Positions 1,194 to 21,513 of a stretch of DNA of 25,418 bases are shown here, piece after piece. This DNA is from a virus. Position numbers and translations under genes: made by a program. Location: positions 1 to 25,418 of IMG/VR virus record IMGVR_UViG_3300017739_002723; one strand, given 5' to 3'. Below the pieces are notes generated by a model. That model was given only the letters and a program-made list of their open reading frames with translations. It made no database searches and had not been told where the DNA came from. Position 1 is the first letter of the stretch; each line of letters starts with the position of its first letter.

Positions 1194-1598
1194 ATGGACT
1201 TATTTCAAAAATGTGATTTTATTTCTCATGCAGGTCTTCACTTAAAATGGAAAATTGAAATGGATGCTCTAAGTGATGCAGAGTGGGATACCTGTGCAAC
1301 CATGATTATGGAGTATCAAAAGCGTCCTTTTTATAAAGCTGAAGGTATTCCTCGTGGGGGAGTTAAGTTAGCTAACGCACTTAACAAATACGCCAGTGGC
1401 AATCCAGCAGATCAAGTGTTAATCTGTGATGACGTATATACTACAGGGGCAAGTTTTAGAGAATATATTAGCGAGAACTATCCAATGTGGACGATGGGTC
1501 AAGGTTATCGCTGGGTTGTTTTTGCTAGAAATCCTAGTTATGAAAAAGATTTTGTCAAAGCACTATTTACGATGCCGGAGAGATCTGATAGAGATTAA
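1194..1598 (+). CDS. Type I phosphoribosyltransferase-like protein
   Basis: This 134-residue protein carries the PRPP-binding signature of type I phosphoribosyltransferases, VLICDDVYTTGAS at residues 75-87 (two acidic residues followed by TTGAS). An upstream GIPRGGVKLA at 51-60 matches the loop that helps bind pyrophosphate. Such enzymes join a nucleobase to PRPP for salvage, or act as regulators. The protein is shorter than most salvage enzymes (about 150-200 residues), and the hood that sets base specificity cannot be recognised. The ATG lies 1 nt after the upstream oxygenase stop, so translation is probably coupled. A hairpin after the stop closes the operon. With the BMP protein and oxygenase it forms an apparent nucleobase uptake, oxidation and salvage set (inference). 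Confidence 0.8.
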   Translation: MDLFQKCDFISHAGLHLKWKIEMDALSDAEWDTCATMIMEYQKRPFYKAEGIPRGGVKLANALNKYASGNPADQVLICDDVYTTGASFREYISENYPMWTMGQGYRWVVFARNPSYEKDFVKALFTMPERSDRD

Positions 1599-1695: not shown

Positions 1696-2520
1696 ATGAC
1701 ACAACTAATCTCACCCACAAAATTTACCCACTCCGTAGACCTTTTAAGGTCTTTTTTTATGGGTAAAGGCTTTAAAGAAGTGCACACTCAAAATCGACTT
1801 TCAATCCTTGCAGCTTGCGAAGACCCCTTTAATGTAGCGACATACAACTATGCAGGAGAGGTATGGCCTCTTCCACAAACTGGTCAAATGTGGCTAGAAC
1901 ATGAATTACTCTCCCAGCCCGATTCAGAGGGCTTTTTTTGTGTCTCCACTTCCTATAGACAGGAACCTAATGCAGTAGAAGGTAGGCATGACATCATTTT
2001 TCCAATGTTTGAGTTTGAGTTTCCGGGCACAATTGATGATCTAAAACAAATGGAAATAGAACTATGTGAATACTTAGGATTTCCAAAGTTAACCGATCAA
2101 ACATATTACAAATGGGCTATGGACTTTGAAACAGAAGAGCTAGATCATGAACACGAAGAAAAGATAGGATACGGAATGATCACACACTTTCCTGAGTTTA
2201 CAAGTCCTTTCTGGAACATGTCTAGAAACGCAGATGGAGTTACAAGCAAAAAGATTGATGTGATTCTTGGAGGCATGGAGACAATTGGTTCAGCAGAACG
2301 CTCAACAGATGTAGAACAGATGCGCGATACTTTTCACACGATTACTAATGGTGAGTATAGTCAGCTGCTATACAAACTGTTTGGTAAAGAACGTGTTGAG
2401 GCAGAACTAGAAAAGTTCCTAGAGTTTGATTTCTTTTCTCGTGTTGGTGGAGGAATTGGTATGACTCGTATGATTGCAGCACTTGATACTTTACAAGAAG
2501 AAGCTCTAGCCGCAGAATAA
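1696..2520 (+). CDS. Class II aminoacyl-tRNA synthetase-like catalytic core (AsnRS/AspRS type, no anticodon-binding domain)
   Basis: The ATG at 1696 is preferred over a TTG at 1681 because AAAGGA at 1684-1689 lies correctly before it; this gives 274 residues. The protein is essentially only the catalytic core of an asparaginyl/aspartyl-tRNA synthetase. It starts near the motif-1 helix (GKGFKEVHT at 24-31). Motif 2 is at about 82-108 (STSYRQEP with R88 and E90, then FPMFEFEF). An AsxRS-like segment I-D-V-I-L-G-G-M-E-T-I-G-S-A-E-R follows at 187-201, and motif 3 is GGGIGMTRM at 251-259 with R258. The N-terminal OB-fold of about 100 residues is absent. Similar free-standing cores are known in archaeal asparagine synthetases and other aaRS paralogues. 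It may make asparagine, charge a tRNA or transfer an activated amino acid. The tRNA 7 nt downstream, with an Asn anticodon, makes tRNA charging an attractive but unproven role. Confidence 0.8.
   Translation: MTQLISPTKFTHSVDLLRSFFMGKGFKEVHTQNRLSILAACEDPFNVATYNYAGEVWPLPQTGQMWLEHELLSQPDSEGFFCVSTSYRQEPNAVEGRHDIIFPMFEFEFPGTIDDLKQMEIELCEYLGFPKLTDQTYYKWAMDFETEELDHEHEEKIGYGMITHFPEFTSPFWNMSRNADGVTSKKIDVILGGMETIGSAERSTDVEQMRDTFHTITNGEYSQLLYKLFGKERVEAELEKFLEFDFFSRVGGGIGMTRMIAALDTLQEEALAAE
1737..1758 (+). other. Terminator-like hairpin plus T-tract inside the AsxRS-like coding region
   Basis: A perfect 7-bp inverted repeat, AGACCTT at 1737-1743 and AAGGTCT at 1746-1752, is followed by T residues through 1758, giving the architecture of an intrinsic terminator about 40 nt into the coding sequence. 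The same bases encode D-L-L-R-S-F-F. An in-frame ATG follows at 1759, with an AAGG in the 3' arm of the hairpin, so an internal start is conceivable. The two-base loop would need to open to four in RNA, leaving a 6-bp stem. It may be a transcription attenuator or a chance feature. Confidence 0.4.
1916..1939 (+). other. Second terminator-like hairpin plus T-tract inside the AsxRS-like coding region
   Basis: AGCCC at 1916-1920 pairs with GGGCT at 1929-1933 around an 8-nt loop, followed by an unbroken T run to 1939. It encodes Q-P-D-S-E-G-F-F, with the two Phe codons forming the T run. It is a short but GC-rich terminator-like structure, the second in this gene within about 200 nt. Confidence 0.35.
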
Positions 2521-2526
2521 AATTTT

Positions 2527-2611
2527 TCTGGGGTGGTGGAAATGGCAGACACGCACGATTGTTTCTCGTGTGCCGTGAGGCGTGGAGGTTCGAGTCCTTC
2601 TCCCAGAGCCA
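2527..2611 (+). tRNA. tRNA with GUU (Asn) anticodon on a class II, Leu-like body with long variable arm
   Basis: A complete 85-nt cloverleaf with encoded CCA can be folded by hand. The acceptor is TCTGGGG (2527-2533) with TCCCAGA (2601-2607), one G-U pair; the discriminator is G2608; CCA is at 2609-2611. The D-arm is Leu-like (GTGGAAATGGCAGACAC). The anticodon stem CACGA/TCGTG (2554-2558 with 2566-2570) holds the loop TTGTTTC, so U33 is followed by anticodon GTT at 2561-2563. The variable arm has a GCC/GGC stem, and the T-arm is GGAGG-TTCGAGT-CCTTC. Position 37 is T, which is rare. U1-A72, G73 and GUU match bacterial tRNA-Asn, while the D-arm and long variable arm are those of tRNA-Leu/Ser. 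It is therefore either an unusual Asn-decoding tRNA, a remodelled tRNA-Leu, or a tRNA-like RNA. It sits directly after an AsnRS-like gene. Confidence 0.85.
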
Positions 2612-5093: not shown

Positions 5094-7071
5094 CGCTGAA
5101 ACTCAAGTAACTAATCCAGGACATAGTACTGTGCGCGACGATTCTTTTGTCGAAGTGCCTCTCCAATTCGTATTTCCTTTTTTTGGGGAAGAATTTTCTA
5201 CTAGTTATATGTTTACAAATGGTGTTGTCGGGTTCCAAGATCCTACACAACAAGGTGTGCAGTCGCACTGGTGTTGTCAAGGCAGGGATTTAGAAGCACT
5301 CGCAGAAGCAGGAGTAGATATTAGTCAGTATTCTTTTGTTATCGCACCTCTTTGGACTGACCTCATTGATCTACGTGTCGATGCTGATGGCGATGGTCAA
5401 GTAGATAGCGGTTTATTTACAGACGGTGATAGCACGCAAATGACTTATATTTGGAGAAACCTAGCTGAATATCGTAATGCTACTAAGCTAAATACTTTTG
5501 AATTACAAATCAAACCTGACGGAACCTATGACATAGATTATACAGGTATCGATATTATAAATCACGCAATTACCTCTGGAGTAGCTGGTGACTTAACAGG
5601 CGCTCACTTGTTAGCCGATCCATCAACAGCAGAAGGATTCACTCAGTATTTTTATTCAAGTGGTTTTACAGGTGTTTTAAATGGGTACAATAATAACTTA
5701 GAAATATTGTGTGTAACTAACCCTCTGTATGATCCTCAGTGTCCTGGCTACGCAGCTGCCTATGCTCAGTATCTATTTGAGCAACAATGTTCTGCAAACC
5801 CTTTGTACGATTCGACTTGTTCAGGATATGCAAACGCTTATTATGAGCAACAATGTACCCTTAATCCGTTGTATGATAGCGGTTGTTCTGGCTATACTCA
5901 AGCATTCTATAATCAACAATGCTCTTTAGATCCTTTATATGATTCTGGTTGTCCTGGCTATGCTCAGGCCTATTTAGATCAACAATGCTCTTTAGACCCT
6001 TTATATGATACTTCTTGCTATGGTTATGCTCAGGCCTATTTAGATCAACAGTGTTCTTTAGACCCTTTATATGATATCTCTTGTCCTGGATATGACACGG
6101 CTTATTTTAATCAACAGTGTACCTTAGATGCTACTTATAATCCACAGTGTCCAGATTATTACATGGCTATGTGCGAAGAAGATCCGCTTTATGATATGGG
6201 CTGTATTGGTTATGATACTGCTAATTTTGAGTATCAGTGCTCACTAGATTCTCAATATGATCAAAATTGTGTTGGTTACGTAAACCTTAGCAATGACGGA
6301 GATTTTATTGAAATTTTTGATCCAGTTATTGAGGATATTTTAGAAGAAGAGTATAATGAAAATAATTACATAACTGAACAAACTGTCCCAAGTTTTGTTA
6401 CTGAGTTCTTTGAAGAAGCTTTTGATGTTGATATAATATATTCAGAAAGAGATACTTTTGAAGAGGCTCTTGAGCTTGATTTAGAGTCTGAACTATCAGA
6501 GCTTGATGAAAATTCTTTTGAAAGAGAAGTTTTAGAAGAAGAGCCAGAACTTACTGAAGATGTTGAAGATCCTAGGGGGGATCAAATTCCAGAGAACGAT
6601 GACATAACGGGAGAAAGTGATGCTGCTGAAACGAATGATGGACAAGCAAAAACAGAGGATGACATCGAAAACGAAATCACATCGTTGGAGAAGACCGCTG
6701 ACAGCGAAGGGAAGTCAGAGCAAATGGAGAAGCCAGAGACAAAGGTACAAGAGTCCAGTAGTGATGTTCGGCCCGACGCGGATAGTTCAAGAAGAAATAA
6801 GTTAAAAATGCTTATTGCGGCTAAAGCTAATCAAGCTACTAAAGAACTTGAAGAAGCCGTTACATTAGAACAACAGATGAACATCCAAAAAAGAATTCTA
6901 GCACTTATTAGCTTTGTGCCAGACTTTAAGGATGAATATACAGAGAAAGAAGTAACTCAGGTGAATTTTTATCCCCCAAAACCTGTGGTTGATCATGCGT
7001 ATGCACGCTGGTTTTTAAATGATCCAACTTTTGGCGCGATGGAGGATTTACAATATCCTAGTTTGAGATAG
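5020..7071 (+). CDS. Large secreted protein: NIDO-like N-terminal domain, nine Cys repeats, acidic stalk
   Basis: The ATG at 5020 is preferred to the longer frame from 4942 because it begins a good signal peptide (MFKNVMQRLLLAVFLSV..., cleavage near S-N-A) with GGAG 10 nt upstream. The 683-residue protein has four parts. Residues 28-230 resemble the nidogen/NIDO-type fold (F-F-G-x-x-F near the start, then F-V-I-A-P-L-W-T-D, a Y-I-W-R-N-L strand, F-E-L-Q-I and Y-D-I-D-Y-T-G). Residues 231-420 contain nine tandem repeats of mostly 22 residues, each like C-S-L-D-P-L-Y-D-x-x-C-P-G-Y-A-x-A-Y-x-x-Q-Q. Residues 430-600 form a Glu/Asp-rich stalk. The C-terminal 80 residues are basic and helical, then end YPSLR. 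It may be a virion surface, adhesion or envelope protein. Paired Cys in each repeat suggest a disulfide-braced rod outside the cytoplasm. Confidence 0.75.
   Translation: MFKNVMQRLLLAVFLSVCYYSSSSNAETQVTNPGHSTVRDDSFVEVPLQFVFPFFGEEFSTSYMFTNGVVGFQDPTQQGVQSHWCCQGRDLEALAEAGVDISQYSFVIAPLWTDLIDLRVDADGDGQVDSGLFTDGDSTQMTYIWRNLAEYRNATKLNTFELQIKPDGTYDIDYTGIDIINHAITSGVAGDLTGAHLLADPSTAEGFTQYFYSSGFTGVLNGYNNNLEILCVTNPLYDPQCPGYAAAYAQYLFEQQCSANPLYDSTCSGYANAYYEQQCTLNPLYDSGCSGYTQAFYNQQCSLDPLYDSGCPGYAQAYLDQQCSLDPLYDTSCYGYAQAYLDQQCSLDPLYDISCPGYDTAYFNQQCTLDATYNPQCPDYYMAMCEEDPLYDMGCIGYDTANFEYQCSLDSQYDQNCVGYVNLSNDGDFIEIFDPVIEDILEEEYNENNYITEQTVPSFVTEFFEEAFDVDIIYSERDTFEEALELDLESELSELDENSFEREVLEEEPELTEDVEDPRGDQIPENDDITGESDAAETNDGQAKTEDDIENEITSLEKTADSEGKSEQMEKPETKVQESSSDVRPDADSSRRNKLKMLIAAKANQATKELEEAVTLEQQMNIQKRILALISFVPDFKDEYTEKEVTQVNFYPPKPVVDHAYARWFLNDPTFGAMEDLQYPSLR
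5710..6291 (+). repeat. Tandem ~66-bp coding repeats (nine units)
   Basis: The units begin at Cys codons near 5710, 5788, 5854, 5920, 5986, 6052, 6118, 6172 and 6238, mostly 66 bp apart; the first gap is 78 bp and one unit is 54 bp. Each encodes C-x-x-D/N-P-L-Y-D-x-x-C-x-G-Y-x-x-A-Y. The units at 5920-6118 are close to identical at DNA level over long runs, indicating recent duplication, while outer units are diverged. Copy number probably varies among relatives. Confidence 0.85.
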
Positions 7072-8820: not shown

Positions 8821-8857
8821 TACATGGGAAAAAGACGGTCGTGAAGTTGATTTCTAA
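8780..8857 (+). CDS. Tiny ORF (25 residues), possible small gene
   Basis: The ATG at 8780 opens a 25-codon frame that overlaps the end of the previous gene by 41 nt and stops 9 nt before the next. It encodes a peptide beginning MTETQLMDIRTRF and ending KDGREVDF, with balanced charge and helical character. Purine-rich sequence (GAAGAGC) about 8 nt upstream could serve as ribosome-binding site. It fills what would otherwise be a gap in a tightly packed operon, which is the main support. Confidence 0.45.
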   Translation: MTETQLMDIRTRFNTWEKDGREVDF

Positions 8858-8866
8858 GGAGAGAAT

Positions 8867-9193
8867 ATGGCTAATAAAGTTTTAACATCTGATAGCGTGC
8901 TTAATGAAGCAGATTTAGATGGGGACGGAATCGTCTCTAATGATGAACTTAACAAACATGAGAGAATATTGAGAATAGAGAACGAAGACAAAAAAGAAGA
9001 TGCCCAACGTAATATGGCTTGGTTTGCGCTTTTTGGGATGTTATTGTATCCTTTTGCCGTAGTGCTTGCTACCTGGATGGGTTTATCAGGAGCCTCTGAT
9101 ATTTTAGGGGATATGGCTCCTACCTACTTTGTATCAGTTGCAGCCTTAGTTGCTGCATACTATGGTAAAGAGGCGTATGTAAAAGGCAAATAA
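8867..9193 (+). CDS. EF-hand-containing small membrane protein (holin-like topology)
   Basis: This 108-residue protein has AAGGAG just before its ATG. Residues 15-28 contain a canonical EF-hand calcium-binding loop (D-L-D-G-D-G-I-V-S-N-D-E-L; the DxDxDG pattern, with Glu at position 12). A charged helix follows (about 29-46), then two membrane segments (about 50-70 and 84-102) and a short basic tail. Two membrane segments and small size allow a holin or membrane-sensor role, and the gene ends the envelope block that began with the spanins. Calcium-controlled membrane function is an inference. EF-hands of this kind also occur in dockerin-like modules. Confidence 0.72.
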   Translation: MANKVLTSDSVLNEADLDGDGIVSNDELNKHERILRIENEDKKEDAQRNMAWFALFGMLLYPFAVVLATWMGLSGASDILGDMAPTYFVSVAALVAAYYGKEAYVKGK

Positions 9194-13857: not shown

Positions 13858-14766
13858 ATGAAAATATTACTCACTGGGGGGAGTGGGTTTATTGGTAAAT
13901 ATTTAACACCAGAACTTTCTCAACACGAAGTGTATCATCTCAAGTCTGATTTAAGAGATTATGATGCTGTTCGGGAGGAAGTTCTGGCGTTTCAACCTAA
14001 TGTTACTGTTCATCTGGCAGCTAGAACAGAGGTTGAATCTTCTTTTTACGAACAAGTCACTTTCTCTGAAATAAATTATGTAGGATCAGTAAATCTAATC
14101 GAGGCCTGTAAGGACATTGACGATTTTCAACTTTTCTTATTTGCTTCTACTATGGAAACTTACGGCTGGCAACCTGTCTCTGATTTAGTCAGAGATAACG
14201 ATTATATTAAACCTGCAGAAGCTTTTGCTTTTAATGAAGATACTCCCCTTAACCCTAACGCTCCTTATGCTGTTGCTAAAGTTGCAGTTGAAAAATATTT
14301 AGAATATGCCACCAGAGCTTATGGATTACCTTGGTGTGCCATTAGGACTACTAACTGTTATGGTAGATGGGATAATGCCTTTTTTGTAACCGAATCTATC
14401 ATCTCTCAAATGGCAAGAAAAGATGAGTGTAATTTAGGTTATTCAGAACCTTACCGTAATTTTATATTTATAGACGATCTAATTTATTTATATACTAGGT
14501 TAATTAATAATCCCCATGCGGCTTCTGCTCTTAAAGCTTTTACTTGTGGTCCGAATAACCCTATCAAAATGAGAGACTACGCTGAGTTAATAGCAAAAAA
14601 GATGGATTTCACAGGAACAATTAATTGGGATACTAGACCTCACAGACCTGGAGAGATTTTTTACTTATCTTCTACAAATGATAAAGTTAACGTGGTATTA
14701 GACTGGAAACCTAGAGTAGAGCTAGAAGAAGGCTTGGATAAAACAATCAAGCTATGGATAACGTAA
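13858..14766 (+). CDS. NAD(P)-dependent epimerase/dehydratase (extended SDR)
   Basis: This 302-residue protein is an extended short-chain dehydrogenase. The Rossmann motif T-G-G-S-G-F-I-G is at 6-13, the active-site S/T in F-A-S-T-M-E-T-Y-G at 95-103, and the catalytic Y-x-x-x-K is Y137-K141 (PYAVAK). A downstream TTNCYG and R-N-F-I-F-I-D-D segment is typical of nucleotide-sugar epimerases and dehydratases. These enzymes interconvert UDP-, GDP- or dTDP-sugars. It heads a run of glycosyltransferase-like genes and overlaps the first by 13 nt, so it probably makes their sugar donor (inference). The exact sugar is not evident. It is somewhat short for a GalE/RmlB-type enzyme, yet all core motifs are present. 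Confidence 0.9.
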   Translation: MKILLTGGSGFIGKYLTPELSQHEVYHLKSDLRDYDAVREEVLAFQPNVTVHLAARTEVESSFYEQVTFSEINYVGSVNLIEACKDIDDFQLFLFASTMETYGWQPVSDLVRDNDYIKPAEAFAFNEDTPLNPNAPYAVAKVAVEKYLEYATRAYGLPWCAIRTTNCYGRWDNAFFVTESIISQMARKDECNLGYSEPYRNFIFIDDLIYLYTRLINNPHAASALKAFTCGPNNPIKMRDYAELIAKKMDFTGTINWDTRPHRPGEIFYLSSTNDKVNVVLDWKPRVELEEGLDKTIKLWIT

Positions 14767-15869
14767 AATTTCTTTTTGAATATGATTTGCATTTATGGGA
14801 GGAAAAATATCTCTCCACAATCAATCATAAGTTCAATAAAAAAGTCTACTGGTGGATGGTTGACTTAAATCATTCTATCTTTGATTTTTATGATAAAGAA
14901 AGTCTTTTAATTGATGTACAAAATGGAGCATATGTTGTTGTTGATCATTCTCAAGACCCTTGCTCTCAGCTCACCCTAGAGACTCTTTTTTTAAAAGAAC
15001 TTCATCACGAGTTTAAGAATCGTAATATTTCAAAAAAACAGATCATAATTATAACTCCCACTCCCAGAGGTTTGTTTTTAGATAATCCTGATCTTCCTGT
15101 AAAATACGTCTCTTTTAATAGTTTATTTGAGATTACTAAAGTATATGCTAAACAGGTATTATCTTTTGATTTTACTGTACCCCTAAAATCTCCCAAAAAA
15201 CACTTCCTCTGTTTAATGAGGCGAGACTCTCCAAATAGGCGACTAACAAATTATTTACTACATATTAAAAATATTCATCATTTTGGCTTAGTGTCGCATT
15301 TACGAATTACAGAGGGTAATCAGCTATCTCGCGGGTTACTTAAAGATGAAGCTATCACAATGTTTCATCATGATTCTTTTGATCTAAAAAGCTTTACTAA
15401 ATTTGGTTTAATGAAACACTTTTTAGGGTCTGAATACCTGATAGACAAAGGTACAGCAGCTCACTCATATCCTCTGCATCAAAAGCTTTCTCAGGATACT
15501 GTATTTGAAATAGTTAGCGAAACTGACACAGGAAAAAATTTGTTTTTAACAGAAAAAACCTTTAAAGCTATTTTAAACAAAAGCCCGTTTATTATGTTAG
15601 GCAATAGGTTTATTTTAAAATATCTTCGTCACTTAGGGTTTAAGACTTTTCACCCAATAATAAATGAAGAGTACGATACTTTATCAAACACATATAAAAG
15701 ATTTAGTGCAGCCCTATACGAAGCAGAAAAACTTTGTAACTTATCATTAGATGATTGTGAGGATAAACTTTCTACACTTAATGATATTTGCGAGTTTAAC
15801 TATAATCATTTCTTAAATACTGATTGGCATTTTGATGTTCATAAAAATATTAGTGAACTGATATGTTAG
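14754..15869 (+). CDS. Putative glycosyltransferase, TEK-motif (GT10-like) family, paralogue A
   Basis: This 371-residue protein is the first of five related genes. Its C-terminal half has F-E-I-V-S-E-T (251-257), F-L-T-E-K-T-F-K-A-I (264-273), S-P-F-I-M-L-G (277-283), L-K-Y-L-R-H-L-G-F-K-T-F (288-299) and E-E-Y-D (305-308). The E...TEK-x-x-K-x-(I/L)...PF-x-x-x-G pattern parallels the nucleotide-sugar site of alpha-1,3-fucosyltransferases (GT10) and related GT-B enzymes. The N-terminal half shares with its paralogues V-Y-W-W (31-34), V-V-V-D-H-S-Q-D-P (61-69), I-I-I-I-T-P-T-P (97-104), and F-L-C-L-M-R-R-D (151-158) followed by R-R-L-x-N-Y-L-L-H. No signal or membrane segment is evident, so it should act in the cytoplasm. 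Donor and acceptor are unknown. Confidence 0.65.
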   Translation: MDNVKFLFEYDLHLWEEKYLSTINHKFNKKVYWWMVDLNHSIFDFYDKESLLIDVQNGAYVVVDHSQDPCSQLTLETLFLKELHHEFKNRNISKKQIIIITPTPRGLFLDNPDLPVKYVSFNSLFEITKVYAKQVLSFDFTVPLKSPKKHFLCLMRRDSPNRRLTNYLLHIKNIHHFGLVSHLRITEGNQLSRGLLKDEAITMFHHDSFDLKSFTKFGLMKHFLGSEYLIDKGTAAHSYPLHQKLSQDTVFEIVSETDTGKNLFLTEKTFKAILNKSPFIMLGNRFILKYLRHLGFKTFHPIINEEYDTLSNTYKRFSAALYEAEKLCNLSLDDCEDKLSTLNDICEFNYNHFLNTDWHFDVHKNISELIC

Positions 15870-16999
15870 AGGCAACTTTTTTATCTGATAAGCCTGATGA
15901 ATATCCAGTTCTTTTACGCTCTGATGTAAAAGGAGGTTCTTTTTCCTCCAAAGTTTACTGGTGGGAGCCACACCCTTGGGGTTCAAACAATATATTTGAT
16001 TACGTTCCTAAAGAAACCTTACTGACAGAAGATTTTTTTATAATTGTAGATTGTAGTCCTGATGCTGTGTATCAAGATTTCATCGAGAGAACTTACCTTT
16101 GGACTATATTTCAATTCTTTAGAGACAATAAAATATCTCTAAAAAGATTAATTGTTTTAACACCCTCACCAGAGTACCTTTTTATGGAAAAAGAAAGAGA
16201 TTATAAACATTTATTCTTCTCTCCTTTTTGGTTTATGATTCAAAAAGCGTACTTAAAAAACGACTTTACTAATTTACCTAAAAAGAACATAACAAAAACA
16301 TATTTTACTTTAATGAGAAAAGATACTAAGTCACGATGCCTACTTAACTATATGTTACATAAAAAAGAGATCCACGACAAAGGGTTTGTAACTCATAATA
16401 GAGTAAACCCTAAAGAAATACTGGTTGATGAAGTTTCTTTATCGAGTATGCTAGAGGAGTATCCTAAGATAGACCAAAAGGTATTACTAGATAAAGGGTT
16501 GAGCAAGCATGTAATTGATGGAAATTCTATACCAACCTTTAATGATCGTATTTTTAATGATCATCAGATCAGGTATTCTGACCTTCAGTTTAATTTAACC
16601 AGTAAGACTTTTCTTGAGGTAATTGTTGAGCCTCTTAATTTAGATAGAATGTTTTTTACTGAAAAAACCTTAAAAGCCTTTTTAACTAAAAGTATTTTTA
16701 TCATGTTCAATACTCAAAATTCTTTAAAATTTTTAAGGGGATTAGGTTTCAAAACTTTTGGAGAAACATTAGATGAAAGTTATGATGAGATTAGTAATCA
16801 GTTTGATAGAGTCAGTGCTTTCGTTGACGAAATAAAAAGACTTTCTTGCTTATCTACTATTGAGCAGACAGAGCTATATATTAATAATACAGAAATAGTA
16901 GAACACAATTTTACACATTTTATTACCCAAGACTGGTCGTTTAATTTACACAATCGTATAAAAAGGCATATAGATGAAACCGTATTTCATAGCCACTAA
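15863..16999 (+). CDS. Putative glycosyltransferase, TEK-motif family, paralogue B
   Basis: This 378-residue protein overlaps paralogue A by 7 nt. It keeps the family landmarks: V-Y-W-W (31-34), I-V-L-T-P-S-P (97-103), T-L-M-R-K-D (149-154) then L-L-N-Y-M-L-H-K (160-167), E-V-I-V-E-P (252-257), F-F-T-E-K-T-L-K-A-F (264-273), F-L-R-G-L-G-F-K-T-F (290-299) and D-E-S-Y-D (304-308). The VVVDHS segment is altered to I-I-V-D-C-S-P-D, and the PF-x-x-x-G loop reads I-F-I-M-F-N, lacking the Gly. Divergence from A is large, so duplication is old and specificity has probably changed. Its last 26 nt overlap paralogue C. Confidence 0.63.
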   Translation: MLEATFLSDKPDEYPVLLRSDVKGGSFSSKVYWWEPHPWGSNNIFDYVPKETLLTEDFFIIVDCSPDAVYQDFIERTYLWTIFQFFRDNKISLKRLIVLTPSPEYLFMEKERDYKHLFFSPFWFMIQKAYLKNDFTNLPKKNITKTYFTLMRKDTKSRCLLNYMLHKKEIHDKGFVTHNRVNPKEILVDEVSLSSMLEEYPKIDQKVLLDKGLSKHVIDGNSIPTFNDRIFNDHQIRYSDLQFNLTSKTFLEVIVEPLNLDRMFFTEKTLKAFLTKSIFIMFNTQNSLKFLRGLGFKTFGETLDESYDEISNQFDRVSAFVDEIKRLSCLSTIEQTELYINNTEIVEHNFTHFITQDWSFNLHNRIKRHIDETVFHSH

Positions 17000-18095
17000 C
17001 GGCACTAAATATGAAAGTTTAGATCTTTCTTTTGATCGTAAGGTGTGGTGGTGGATACCATCAATTGATCAGTATTCTTTTTTTGATCTGGTTAACAAGA
17101 ATGAGTTCACTAATTCAATGCTTAATGAGAATGCTGTTGTAATTATAGACCACTCTCAAGACCCGATCAAACTTGAAGAGTTTGAGAGCCTGTACTACTC
17201 TCAATTCAAAACACTATTTGAAGAGCATGATATAAGCACTGATAGGATAATTGTTTTAGAGCCTTCTCCTTCCGCTCAATTTTATATGACTGTTGACTCT
17301 CCAAACTATGTCAGTGTTATAGATAAGTTTCATTTACCAAAAAAATTTACACACATTATGTTTAACAGTTTGTTTCTAAATTATTGGAGAAGATGGGAAG
17401 ATGATGAACCAAGTTTCAAAAGAGATCCTGCAAAGCATTTCTTAACACTTGCAAGACACGACAAATTTAGTAGACGTTTTATAAACTACTCTTTACATAA
17501 AAATAATTTATTTGATAAAGGTTTTGTTAGTCACGTTATGATTGATTTTGATACTGATTTGACTCACGATTATCAACTAAAAATGCTTCAGACTAGGGGC
17601 GACTTTGACACTGCACAATATTTAAAGTATGGTTTTACTAAACATATTCTTGATACTGATACTCCTGCTCATCATCCTAAAATTAGCGACTATACTAATT
17701 TAGCAAATAAGACTTGTTTTGAATTAGTACAAGACAGTTTTATTACTGATTGTTTATTGCCAACTGAGAAAGTATTCAAACCTCTTTACGGTAAAACACC
17801 TTTCTTATATGTAGGTAGCCCTTATACGTTAAAATACTTAAAAACCCTTGGATTTGAAACTTTTGATAAAATCTTTGATGAATCTTACGATACTGAATTA
17901 GTATACTATGATAGGATCGAGCTTATTATGAATAATATGCGTGCTATGTGTAGTCTATCTCTGCAAGATTGTAAAAAACGAATAAGTCTTGTAGAAGAGG
18001 TATGTGAACATAATCATAAGCACTTTTTACATATGGATAAAGGTTTTAATATTAAGAAGAGATTAGATAGTGCATTCACCAATATTTTTACATGA
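16974..18095 (+). CDS. Putative glycosyltransferase, TEK-motif family, paralogue C
   Basis: This 373-residue protein starts at the ATG at 16974, with AAAAGG upstream inside paralogue B. Landmarks are V-W-W-W (24-27), V-V-I-I-D-H-S-Q-D-P (55-64), I-V-L-E-P-S-P (93-99), H-F-L-T-L-A-R-H-D (155-163), R-R-F-I-N-Y-S-L-H-K (167-176), L-P-T-E-K-V-F-K-P-L (262-271), T-P-F-L-Y-V-G (275-281), L-K-Y-L-K-T-L-G-F-E-T-F (286-297) and D-E-S-Y-D (302-306). The K-P-L after TEK and the E in GFET are shared with paralogue D, so C and D look closest to each other. It has the full motif set and is probably active. Confidence 0.65.
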   Translation: MKPYFIATNGTKYESLDLSFDRKVWWWIPSIDQYSFFDLVNKNEFTNSMLNENAVVIIDHSQDPIKLEEFESLYYSQFKTLFEEHDISTDRIIVLEPSPSAQFYMTVDSPNYVSVIDKFHLPKKFTHIMFNSLFLNYWRRWEDDEPSFKRDPAKHFLTLARHDKFSRRFINYSLHKNNLFDKGFVSHVMIDFDTDLTHDYQLKMLQTRGDFDTAQYLKYGFTKHILDTDTPAHHPKISDYTNLANKTCFELVQDSFITDCLLPTEKVFKPLYGKTPFLYVGSPYTLKYLKTLGFETFDKIFDESYDTELVYYDRIELIMNNMRAMCSLSLQDCKKRISLVEEVCEHNHKHFLHMDKGFNIKKRLDSAFTNIFT

Positions 18096-19128
18096 GGTAA
18101 ACAACGGTATTTTTGGAGAGATAGATTTTAAATTCTCAAAAAAGGTATTTGTAGCCTCTCCTGACGGTATTTACAATAACTCGTTTTCTACCTTAAATTT
18201 TGAAGAATCTTTTTTAATTGTCGATCACTCAGACGATCCAACAAACCAATCTGTTTTTGATGAGTTTACTTTCTCAAAATTAAATATAGATGCTAATAAA
18301 GTAATTATTGTATCACCGTCTCCTGATCAGCTATTCTACCGAGATTCTGTAAGCAAATTCAAACATATATTTTGTAATGGTCACTTTGCAAAGATTAAAA
18401 ATCGATTAAGTAAGAGGTTTGATTTGGTTAGTCAGAAGAGTATTAAAAAATTATTTTTGTGCTTGAGTAGAGAAGATAAACTACACAGGAGGTTAGTGAA
18501 TTATTGTCTACATAAAAATAAATTATTTGAAAAAGGATTAATTAGTCATCAAAGGACAGAAGGTGGGCATGGATTTAATCTAGCAGATGATTTAAGATTT
18601 TTTTCTCATAGAGTAGACTTTGATCCGACTTTTTATATGCAGTATGGTCTTCGTAAACATTTTATTGATAAGGTAACTGATTCAAGTAAAATCTTAGGTA
18701 AGTCTCTTGCTGCTTATAACTTTGAAGCTTATGCTAATTTAAATAAAGAAATACTTATTGATCTCCCTGTAGAATCTTATGTATCTGATTACATTTTTAT
18801 TACTGAGAAACTTCTTAAACCGCTTGTATTTAAGACTCCATTTTTATTAATAGGCTGTCCTCTGACTCTAAAGTACCTAAGACACTTAGGTTTTGAAACT
18901 TTTGACTGTGTATTTGACGAATCCTATGACGAAGAACTTGTTCTATACGATAGGGTGCAAGGTGTTATAAGCAACTTATCACAACTATCTACTTTATCCT
19001 TGCAAGATGCTACAAAAAAATTTAGAATTACAGAAGATATATGTAACCATAATTATAATCATTTTATGAACTCTGATTGGAGTTTTAACTTACAAGAAAA
19101 AATTGAGAGAGCCATCAATGTATCCTAA
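18070..19128 (+). CDS. Putative glycosyltransferase, TEK-motif family, paralogue D (GTG start)
   Basis: This 352-residue protein uses a GTG at 18070, with AAGAAGAG upstream; no better ATG precedes the conserved part. Landmarks are L-I-V-D-H-S-D-D-P (49-57), I-I-V-S-P-S-P (79-85), L-F-L-C-L-S-R-E-D (128-136), R-R-L-V-N-Y-C-L-H-K (140-149), F-I-T-E-K-L-L-K-P-L (243-252), T-P-F-L-L-I-G (256-262), L-K-Y-L-R-H-L-G-F-E-T-F (267-278) and D-E-S-Y-D (283-287). It lacks the WW pair of A-C in the N-terminal strand and is about 20 residues shorter there. It is most like C in the C-terminal half. Confidence 0.65.
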   Translation: MHSPIFLHEVNNGIFGEIDFKFSKKVFVASPDGIYNNSFSTLNFEESFLIVDHSDDPTNQSVFDEFTFSKLNIDANKVIIVSPSPDQLFYRDSVSKFKHIFCNGHFAKIKNRLSKRFDLVSQKSIKKLFLCLSREDKLHRRLVNYCLHKNKLFEKGLISHQRTEGGHGFNLADDLRFFSHRVDFDPTFYMQYGLRKHFIDKVTDSSKILGKSLAAYNFEAYANLNKEILIDLPVESYVSDYIFITEKLLKPLVFKTPFLLIGCPLTLKYLRHLGFETFDCVFDESYDEELVLYDRVQGVISNLSQLSTLSLQDATKKFRITEDICNHNYNHFMNSDWSFNLQEKIERAINVS

Positions 19129-20221: not shown

Positions 20222-20555
20222 CGTTTTTTCTAATGCATCCTTCGCCGTTCTTTCGGTGATGAAAAGCCTTGATGCATCTAATACTAAAGTGTACAGAGGA
20301 TCTACTGTTTTCGTTCAAAGAAAGCCCGAGGCAGATTTCGGCAATATTACTGTTATTTCTTACAGTGATGATAGATTTGGTACAGATCACACACTACGAG
20401 TTGAAGACTTTGACCAACAGGCTGCTTTTGAAGCCAATGTTGTACCAAAAATTGCCACTGACATTAAGTCGATGATAAGTGATAGGCCTGTTGTTATTGC
20501 TAATAGTAACATCAGTGCTAACTCTTATACTATGAGTGGAACCGCTGTCTCATAG
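20214..20555 (+). CDS. Unknown protein (113 residues), Ser/Val-rich, possibly structural
   Basis: The ATG at 20214 follows a GGAG at 20205-20208 (a GTG at 20187 is in frame but less well placed) and overlaps the previous gene by 8 nt. The product is soluble and beta-rich (S-V-M-K-S-L near the start, V-Y-R-G-S-T-V-F-V-Q-R, I-T-V-I-S-Y), with an Asn/Ser/Thr-rich end. It has no Cys, no membrane segment and no recognised motif. It lies between two enzyme-like genes of the sugar cluster, so it might be the acceptor protein that is modified; this is only a guess from position. Confidence 0.6.
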   Translation: MSNVFSNASFAVLSVMKSLDASNTKVYRGSTVFVQRKPEADFGNITVISYSDDRFGTDHTLRVEDFDQQAAFEANVVPKIATDIKSMISDRPVVIANSNISANSYTMSGTAVS

Positions 20556-21513
20556 GATCGTAACAAATCAGATTAGTCAATCTGAAATGAACATTATTAC
20601 TCAAAAAACAGTAGACTTTTTGTCTAATAGGCTTTTAGGTAATTACAAACTAATTGATTTTACGTGGTTTAATCTATACGATAAAAGTATAGATTATGTT
20701 GAAGAGGATTATGTGGTAGCAGTAGATGTAGCTGATCCTCCCTACTTTCTTAATGAAAAATTAAAATGGATAGACAGGATTAAAAAACCTGTTATTTTTG
20801 TTGGTCCTCCGACTAATGAGTTTCCTTGTGTTGTTCCTTTTTTGGCTTGGCAACGCTTTAGACCTCAAAATCCCTTATCAAAACTTTCTCGTGATAAATT
20901 CTTTGTCTCTTTTAACAGAAAGCCCCACCCTCATAGACAGTTTTACTTTGATAACCTATCAAAATTTGGTTTAAAAGATAAAGGCTTAATAACTTATCAC
21001 TCTGAGAAACCCATGCACAAAATTCATTCACTCGACTTAGATGATGATATAGTAGAACTACAGAGATTAGCTCAAATCGTTGACGAAAAGCAACTAAATT
21101 CTCTTTTTGAGATTGTATGTGAAACCTCACCTTCTGACAATCATATGTTTCTAACTGAAAAATTCAATAAATGTATTGCTACTGAAACGCCTTTTTTCCT
21201 AGCTGGCAATAGAAACTCATTAAGCATACTAAAAAATTATTATGGATTTTACCCTTTTGGTCCAGACGACTCTTATGACTCGTTACCAACTTACAGAGAA
21301 AGAGTATTGAAAATGTTATCTACCGCAGAATTGTTTTTCTCTTATCCAATGAAATCAGTTTTTGACAACGCAAAGAAAAATGCTTATCATCTCTTTAATG
21401 ATTTCGATTCTATTCACGACAGAATCGTAGACAAAAATATAGAAAAGAGTATGAGATATGTTAAAAACTGCATCACGAATGGCTCTGCTTTCGCAGATAG
21501 TGTACGAAGATGA
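20536..21513 (+). CDS. Putative glycosyltransferase, TEK-motif family, divergent paralogue E
   Basis: The longest frame uses GTG at 20536 (325 residues); an ATG at 20587 would give 308 and keeps all motifs. This is the most divergent of the five: V-V-A-V-D-V-A-D-P-P (60-69), V-I-F-V-G-P-P (86-92), K-F-F-V-S-F-N-R-K-P (121-130), L-F-E-I-V-C-E-T (190-197), F-L-T-E-K-F-N-K-C-I (205-214), T-P-F-F-L-A-G (217-223), Y-Y-G-F-Y-P-F (235-241) and D-D-S-Y-D-S-L (244-250). It keeps E-T...TEK...PF-x-x-x-G. It is shorter at the N-terminus and separated from A-D by two unrelated genes, so it may transfer a different sugar or act on a different acceptor. Confidence 0.63.
   Translation: MEPLSHRIVTNQISQSEMNIITQKTVDFLSNRLLGNYKLIDFTWFNLYDKSIDYVEEDYVVAVDVADPPYFLNEKLKWIDRIKKPVIFVGPPTNEFPCVVPFLAWQRFRPQNPLSKLSRDKFFVSFNRKPHPHRQFYFDNLSKFGLKDKGLITYHSEKPMHKIHSLDLDDDIVELQRLAQIVDEKQLNSLFEIVCETSPSDNHMFLTEKFNKCIATETPFFLAGNRNSLSILKNYYGFYPFGPDDSYDSLPTYRERVLKMLSTAELFFSYPMKSVFDNAKKNAYHLFNDFDSIHDRIVDKNIEKSMRYVKNCITNGSAFADSVRR

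Follow-up and report, generated by a model that had tools for sequence, protein, structure and literature searches.

A putative AsnRS-fold pyrimidine-entry enzyme accompanied in marine phages by a class II tRNA with asparagine identity elements

The de novo route to pyrimidines is regarded as nearly universal, with CarAB, PyrB and PyrC as its first steps, and PylRS with tRNA(Pyl) is known as a dedicated synthetase-tRNA pair. The enzyme described here, referred to as X, can be set beside both of these systems as well as beside AsnRS (class IIb) and archaeal asparagine synthetase A (3p8t/3rex). With AsnRS it shares the core fold, the class II motifs and the pocket residues, but it has no OB-fold, is about 18% identical over the core and falls below all NCBIfam cut-offs; it also differs in its location in pyrimidine operons and in the class II tRNA that is its partner in phages. 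Archaeal asparagine synthetase A is, like X, a stand-alone AsnRS-like core of fewer than 300 residues; however, X is less similar to it than to AsnRS, and its genomic context is pyrimidine and not asparagine metabolism. A pathway position equivalent to that of CarAB-PyrB-PyrC is suggested by operons with PyrD/E/F and by mutual exclusion with PyrB and CarB, yet the fold is unrelated, the chemistry presumably different, and one enzyme of 274 residues would stand in for three or four proteins. As with PylRS, a synthetase-like gene is accompanied by a tRNA of its own that is unusual in structure, but X is widespread without this tRNA and the anticodon loop of the putative pair is poor for decoding. 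The gene family itself corresponds to the T4-GC194 'tRNA ligase' of P-SSM2 and P-SSM7, where it is followed by this class II tRNA-Asn; the publication concerned gives T4-GC194 by name only ('tRNA ligase'), with no function, tRNA partner or bacterial relatives (PMC3037559). Our search of the literature found no description of such an enzyme or tRNA, nor of this pyrimidine route.

The window, i.e. the whole stretch of DNA that was analysed, comprises 25,418 nt of IMG/VR virus record IMGVR_UViG_3300017739_002723 (positions 1 to 25,418). The gene for X (1696..2520, + strand) has an AAGGA ribosome-binding-like motif just 5' of it. Its sole Pfam match was PF00152 (class II D/K/N synthetases; E 1e-13, residues 14-263), and it also matched phrog_29758 (E 9e-142), a PHROG of unknown function. 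AF2 modelled the window protein with a pLDDT of 94.4, and the top PDB folds found with Foldseek were AsnRS catalytic cores at a TM of about 0.74 (8h53, 2xgt, 1x54); several of the best-matching AsnRS structures contain Asn-adenylate or analogues. A profile search gave the same order, with AsnRS 2xgt at E 2e-12 and archaeal asparagine synthetase A at E 4e-4. The core starts at about residue 14 and leaves no remainder, with no OB-fold anticodon-binding domain found in the AF2 model or by Foldseek, so that the core-only AsnRS-type enzyme of the preliminary description was borne out by Pfam, the model and the fold comparison. X has motifs 2 and 3, the class II core of AsnRS: the motif 2 region (residues 80-110; 1933..2025, + strand) contains the invariant R88, E90, R97, H98, E106 and E108, and the motif 3 region (2440..2484, + strand), with RVGGGIGMTRMIAAL and R258, contains the invariant R249, G255 and R258. 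The catalytic residues of both motifs were unchanged across 44 phage and bacterial homologues. In alignments, the Lys of AspRS (SPQLYKQ) is replaced by Leu in X (TGQMWLE), likewise in AsnRS (SSQLYLE), and the Asp of AspRS (SLDVE) by Glu in X (MFEFE), likewise in AsnRS (HVEAE); judged by these residues, the amino-acid pocket of X is of the AsnRS type. The window X gave no match to the curated AsnRS models (TIGR00457 / PRK03932), which its relatives matched below cut-off only, and no NCBIfam model was matched over cut-off by any of 44 family members. Membership of a known curated family is ruled out by this result together with the PHROG of unknown function.

After a gap of 6 nt downstream of the stop codon of X, the window carries a class II tRNA whose U1-A72, G73 and GUU are Asn identity elements and whose CCA is encoded (2527..2611, + strand), called by ARAGORN as tRNA-Asn(GUU) at 2527-2611. 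The parsed helices comprise a 7-bp acceptor stem, a Leu-type D-arm, a normal T-arm and a long variable arm of 13 nt with a 3-bp stem (2571..2583, + strand; 13-38 nt in relatives), and the anticodon GUU (2561..2563, + strand) is invariant in the family. The mixture of tRNA-Asn identity elements with a Leu-type D-arm and a long arm, noticed earlier from the letters, was thus confirmed by ARAGORN and by the helix read-out, and the covariation check proposed at that time supported the fold. Among 29 distinct downstream sequences of relatives, 99.9% of helix cells were paired and 18 of 23 pairs showed compensatory changes (0 of 500 shuffles as high); the covariation score was 0.613 versus 0.189 in shuffles and was lost when the partner was slid. 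Covariation was seen in all helices, the anticodon stem included. A scan of the window tRNA against Rfam returned nothing at the gathering threshold, which does not outweigh the other evidence: the window tRNA is a real class II tRNA. U1-A72, G73 and GUU were present in 102 of 102 parsed family tRNAs, GUU being part of the parsing criterion and U1-A72 and G73 not, and in 101 of them the variable arm had 13-38 nt, the short variable loop of tRNA-Asn being absent there. One family tRNA (L005 3806-3883) has a Leu-type D-arm and U37 with a variable region of just 6 nt. In variable arms of 28-38 nt (such as L041 3839-3939 and L017 3850-3951), the terminal loop recurrently contains GCAA and the 3' strand TATTTA is conserved; short variable arms are often capped by GNRA tetraloops.

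Overall, the tRNA adjoined X in about 109 of 126 phage-type loci, a count made up of the 102 parsed tRNAs and seven recognised by inspection (L039, L092, L102, L110, L114, L118, L183). The usual spacing is 5-13 nt; a small number of loci have the start of the tRNA within the last part of the X reading frame. A reverse search with the tRNA pattern alone gave 80 sites, 77 of them with X within 300 nt upstream; L335 and L338 are locus-edge cuts whose contigs (those of L048 and L112) encode X, and L277, the sole pattern match without X, was discarded as a different tRNA whose acceptor and anticodon region are unlike those of the family. All 79 independently found family tRNAs are on X-bearing contigs. 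X was found without the tRNA in about 13 phage-type loci (roughly 10%), and no hidden tRNA was found elsewhere on these tRNA-less phage contigs, including the jumbo contig of L054. The linkage is one-directional: the tRNA never occurs without X, and X sometimes occurs without the tRNA. The conserved adjacency asked about in the preliminary description therefore stood as regards the tRNA and most phage-type loci, but not as regards X, which also occurs alone. In the tree, L126 and L183 branch off first within the phage clade. Both carry the tRNA, which was present from this deepest branch onwards and was lost several times later. After X in L124 (4865-4885), the acceptor stem and GCCA alone survive, as if the interior had been excised. 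Two huge phages (LR756501 and LR756508; L085, L086) have an X of 45-49% identity without the class II tRNA; tRNA-Asn genes of class I are found at other sites in these phages. The cultured cyanophages P-SSM7, P-SSM2 and P-SSM5 carry the pair of X and tRNA, and P-SSM2 has a single tRNA gene (PMC3037559). The P-SSM2 record (L083, AY939844.2) annotates the tRNA-Asn about 2 kb downstream, within a coding sequence, and ARAGORN puts it straight after the 'tRNA ligase' gene (positions concerned: 6813-6900, 8825-8910).

Bacterial homologues of X, identified by a genome scan, are 52-63% identical and have the same active site. Their hosts include Patescibacteria, Bacteroidota (Aureispira, Chitinophagales), Pasteurella atlantica, Midichloriaceae and others. 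Evident phage contigs apart, no tRNA was found beside bacterial X, and a tRNA model found no class II GUU tRNA in 10 X-bearing bacterial genomes, the long matches reading as Leu, Ser or Tyr. Since X does without the tRNA in bacteria and in about 13 phage-type loci, the tRNA is not essential to the chemistry of X. PyrD, PyrE or PyrF was found within about 4 kb of X in 26 of 72 bacterial loci, and such a neighbourhood was also found in 22 of 127 phage-type loci. Tight operons of X-PyrF-PyrE(-PyrD-PRPP synthetase) occur in L162, L155, L158, L165 and L131; the run is X-PyrF-PyrE-PyrD-PRPP synthetase in Midichloriaceae and X-PyrF-PyrE in Pasteurella.

The upstream enzymes of the pathway are mostly missing where X is present. 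Over cut-off, 50 X-bearing genomes contained PyrB in 6 cases, CarB in 5 and PyrC in 4, and PyrF was matched in 32; control genomes had PyrB and CarB in 14/14 each. Many X-bearing genomes are MAGs and small, so a comparison inside one order is the better test. In the order of Aureispira, where X occurs in 5 of 120 genomes, PyrB was found in 0/5 X-positive versus 110/115 X-negative genomes (p 1.3e-6, computed as if the genomes were independent, though they are only partly so). CarB over cut-off was likewise found in 0/5 versus 97/115, and PyrC in 0/5 versus 95/115, with lower-scoring PyrC-like genes persisting in the five; because these sub-cut-off genes are kept in the Bacteroidota members, loss of the PyrC step is unsure. 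The complete genome of Pasteurella atlantica contains X, PyrD, PyrE and PyrF, its PyrB match is OTCase-like only, and no CarB or PyrC match was found in it; Pasteurellaceae such as H. influenzae are without the upstream pyrimidine steps anyway. Among related genomes, X is thus found instead of PyrB and CarB, with exceptions in the 6 of 50 X-bearing genomes that still have PyrB. Four genomes of the order of Aureispira (G078, G092, G115, G140) have no X and neither PyrB nor CarB over cut-off, and may be auxotrophs or users of yet another route.

In the window, X is directly preceded by a gene for a short PyrE-like phosphoribosyltransferase of 134 residues (1194..1598, + strand), identified by a phmmer neighbour survey and from the sequences; relatives of it lie beside X in L414-L416 and L422. 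The PyrE-like genes found in bacterial X operons and in phage X cassettes are members of its family; the Pfam Pribosyltran match is below cut-off in the window copy and has an E of 1e-5 in the bacterial homologue of L131. Searches seeded with PyrE-like and PyrD-like genes gave phage cassettes of the order X-tRNA-PyrF-PyrD (L463, L465, L472), PyrD-X-tRNA-PyrE (L468), PyrD-X-tRNA (L452, L456-L459) and PyrE-X-tRNA (window, L414-L416), as well as X-PyrD without the tRNA (L432, L433), and these gene orders place the tRNA inside pyrimidine cassettes. The PyrD/E/F copies beside phage X are mini forms. X elsewhere on the contig was found for 1 of 45 PyrD- or PyrE-bearing phage contigs, which are fragments. 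The PyrE-like gene had no match among 50,697 records of cultured phages, so cultured members cannot confirm the PyrE linkage. Directly 5' of the PyrE-like gene, the window encodes a 2OG-Fe(II) oxygenase of the isopenicillin-synthase type (332-1192; Pfam E 2e-18), which may have a link to pyrimidine chemistry. Further downstream, a motif resembling FLTEK..K......PF recurs in five adjacent or nearly adjacent ORFs (14754-19128 and 20536-21513), apparently tandem paralogues from a single enzyme family.

The anticodon loop of the window tRNA, UUGUUUC, gives U at position 37 (2564..2564, + strand), which is unexpected for tRNA-Asn and is a feature that the preliminary description does not mention. 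Of the 102 family tRNAs, 79 have T at position 37, 16 have A and 7 have C. A pyrimidine was found there in 59/68 distinct family tRNAs versus 3/225 other tRNAs of the fetched loci (p about 3e-48, uncorrected for relatedness); a purine is present in the other 222, while the three with a pyrimidine are short GUU tRNAs with U37 that resemble L005. U33 is lost and GUU kept in two family tRNAs (L102 3900-4000 and L092 from 2390, with G33 and C33). The family tRNA thus looks poorly suited to decoding, and the combination of invariant U1-A72, G73 and GUU with a pyrimidine at 37 suggests selection on AsnRS-type recognition and not on the needs of the ribosome. A decoding role may nevertheless be played, because A37 is found in 16 of the 102 and U33 is mostly retained.

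We propose that X is a pyrimidine-entry enzyme of the AsnRS fold and that in phages it is joined by a dedicated Asn-carrier tRNA, a combined claim that we consider evenly balanced between right and wrong. X would form acyl-adenylates with its AsnRS catalytic core and would have been recruited to open the de novo pyrimidine pathway, standing in for carbamoyl-phosphate synthetase and aspartate carbamoyltransferase and perhaps also for dihydroorotase; its product, as the genomes suggest, would feed PyrD, PyrE and PyrF. On chemical grounds, the simplest balanced reaction would be Asn + HCO3- + ATP -> L-dihydroorotate + AMP + PPi. As L-dihydroorotate equals asparagine plus CO2 minus water, this reaction would suit an Asn-binding, adenylate-forming X, and it would make CarAB, PyrB and PyrC all dispensable at once. 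On entry into marine phages, X would have become tied to the class II tRNA, which appears to have retained U1-A72, G73 and GUU for AsnRS-type recognition and not the purine 37 of good decoding. This tRNA may be X's own carrier of asparagine, with either the host AsnRS or X charging it, and may provide the phage pyrimidine cassette with a supply or buffer of Asn, use by the ribosome probably not being its main role. In bacterial tRNA-Asn, U1-A72 is also read by the GatCAB amidotransferase, so a route from Asp-tRNA to Asn-tRNA is conceivable. A bolder and distinctly improbable version is a tRNA-linked pyrimidine synthesis in which X makes dihydroorotate directly from Asn, bicarbonate and ATP, and a dedicated, largely non-decoding class II tRNA-Asn of marine phages carries the Asn and shunts it from the host into phage nucleotides.

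An alternative explanation, unlikely in our view, is that of an orthogonal translation pair, in which X charges the tRNA with Asn, Asp or another amino acid through the acceptor end or the long arm. It would account for the obligate one-way linkage, the spacing of 5-13 nt in most loci, the AsnRS core and AsnRS-type pocket of X and the invariance of the Asn identity elements; however, bacterial X, with the same invariant residues, lies in pyrimidine operons and is without such a tRNA (10 genomes), about 13 phage-type loci have X alone, and a pyrimidine at 37 is unfavourable to decoding. Of the charging pair put forward in the preliminary description, the Asn identity elements and the linkage thus stood, while an exclusive bond and normal decoding did not, X being widespread without the tRNA and tied to pyrimidine genes. 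X could also be an archaeal-type asparagine synthetase (Asp + NH3 + ATP -> Asn) with the tRNA as extra Asn-decoding capacity. The core-only architecture is indeed that of the archaeal enzyme (3p8t/3rex) and there is weak NCBIfam similarity, but we rate this reading as quite improbable: X scores far under the cut-off of the asparagine synthetase models (PRK06462; 20.7 versus 389 bits), a free-asparagine role suits the bacterial neighbours PyrD/E/F less well and leaves the loss of PyrB and CarB unexplained, and a decoding tRNA would not be expected to have a pyrimidine at 37. Very unlikely is a tRNA serving as a processing or regulatory element, whether cleavage by RNase P and RNase Z defines where the X mRNA ends or autoregulation works through binding of the tRNA by X; its position 5-13 nt past the stop codon, with overlap of the coding sequence in a few loci, would fit, yet punctuation has no need of an invariant GUU, G73 and encoded CCA, nor of a full tRNA maintained with a covarying anticodon stem. 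Accidental adjacency, which had been offered as the alternative at the outset, is ruled out by the covariation, the linkage searches in both directions (77/80 reverse matches) and the 102 parsed loci.

The best-supported reading is that X derives from AsnRS, has so far gone unrecognised as an entry enzyme of pyrimidine synthesis and is joined by a tRNA partner in phages only. The cultured strains P-SSM2, P-SSM7 and Aureispira carry X, so both halves of this reading are open to direct testing there, and the set of X and tRNA might serve as a ready-made orthogonal tool. If true, the tRNA would be kept for a metabolic enzyme instead of for codons, the gap in genomes with PyrD/E/F but no upstream pathway would be filled, and Bacteroidota, Patescibacteria, relatives of Rickettsiales and abundant marine phages would have a new metabolic entry point into pyrimidine synthesis.
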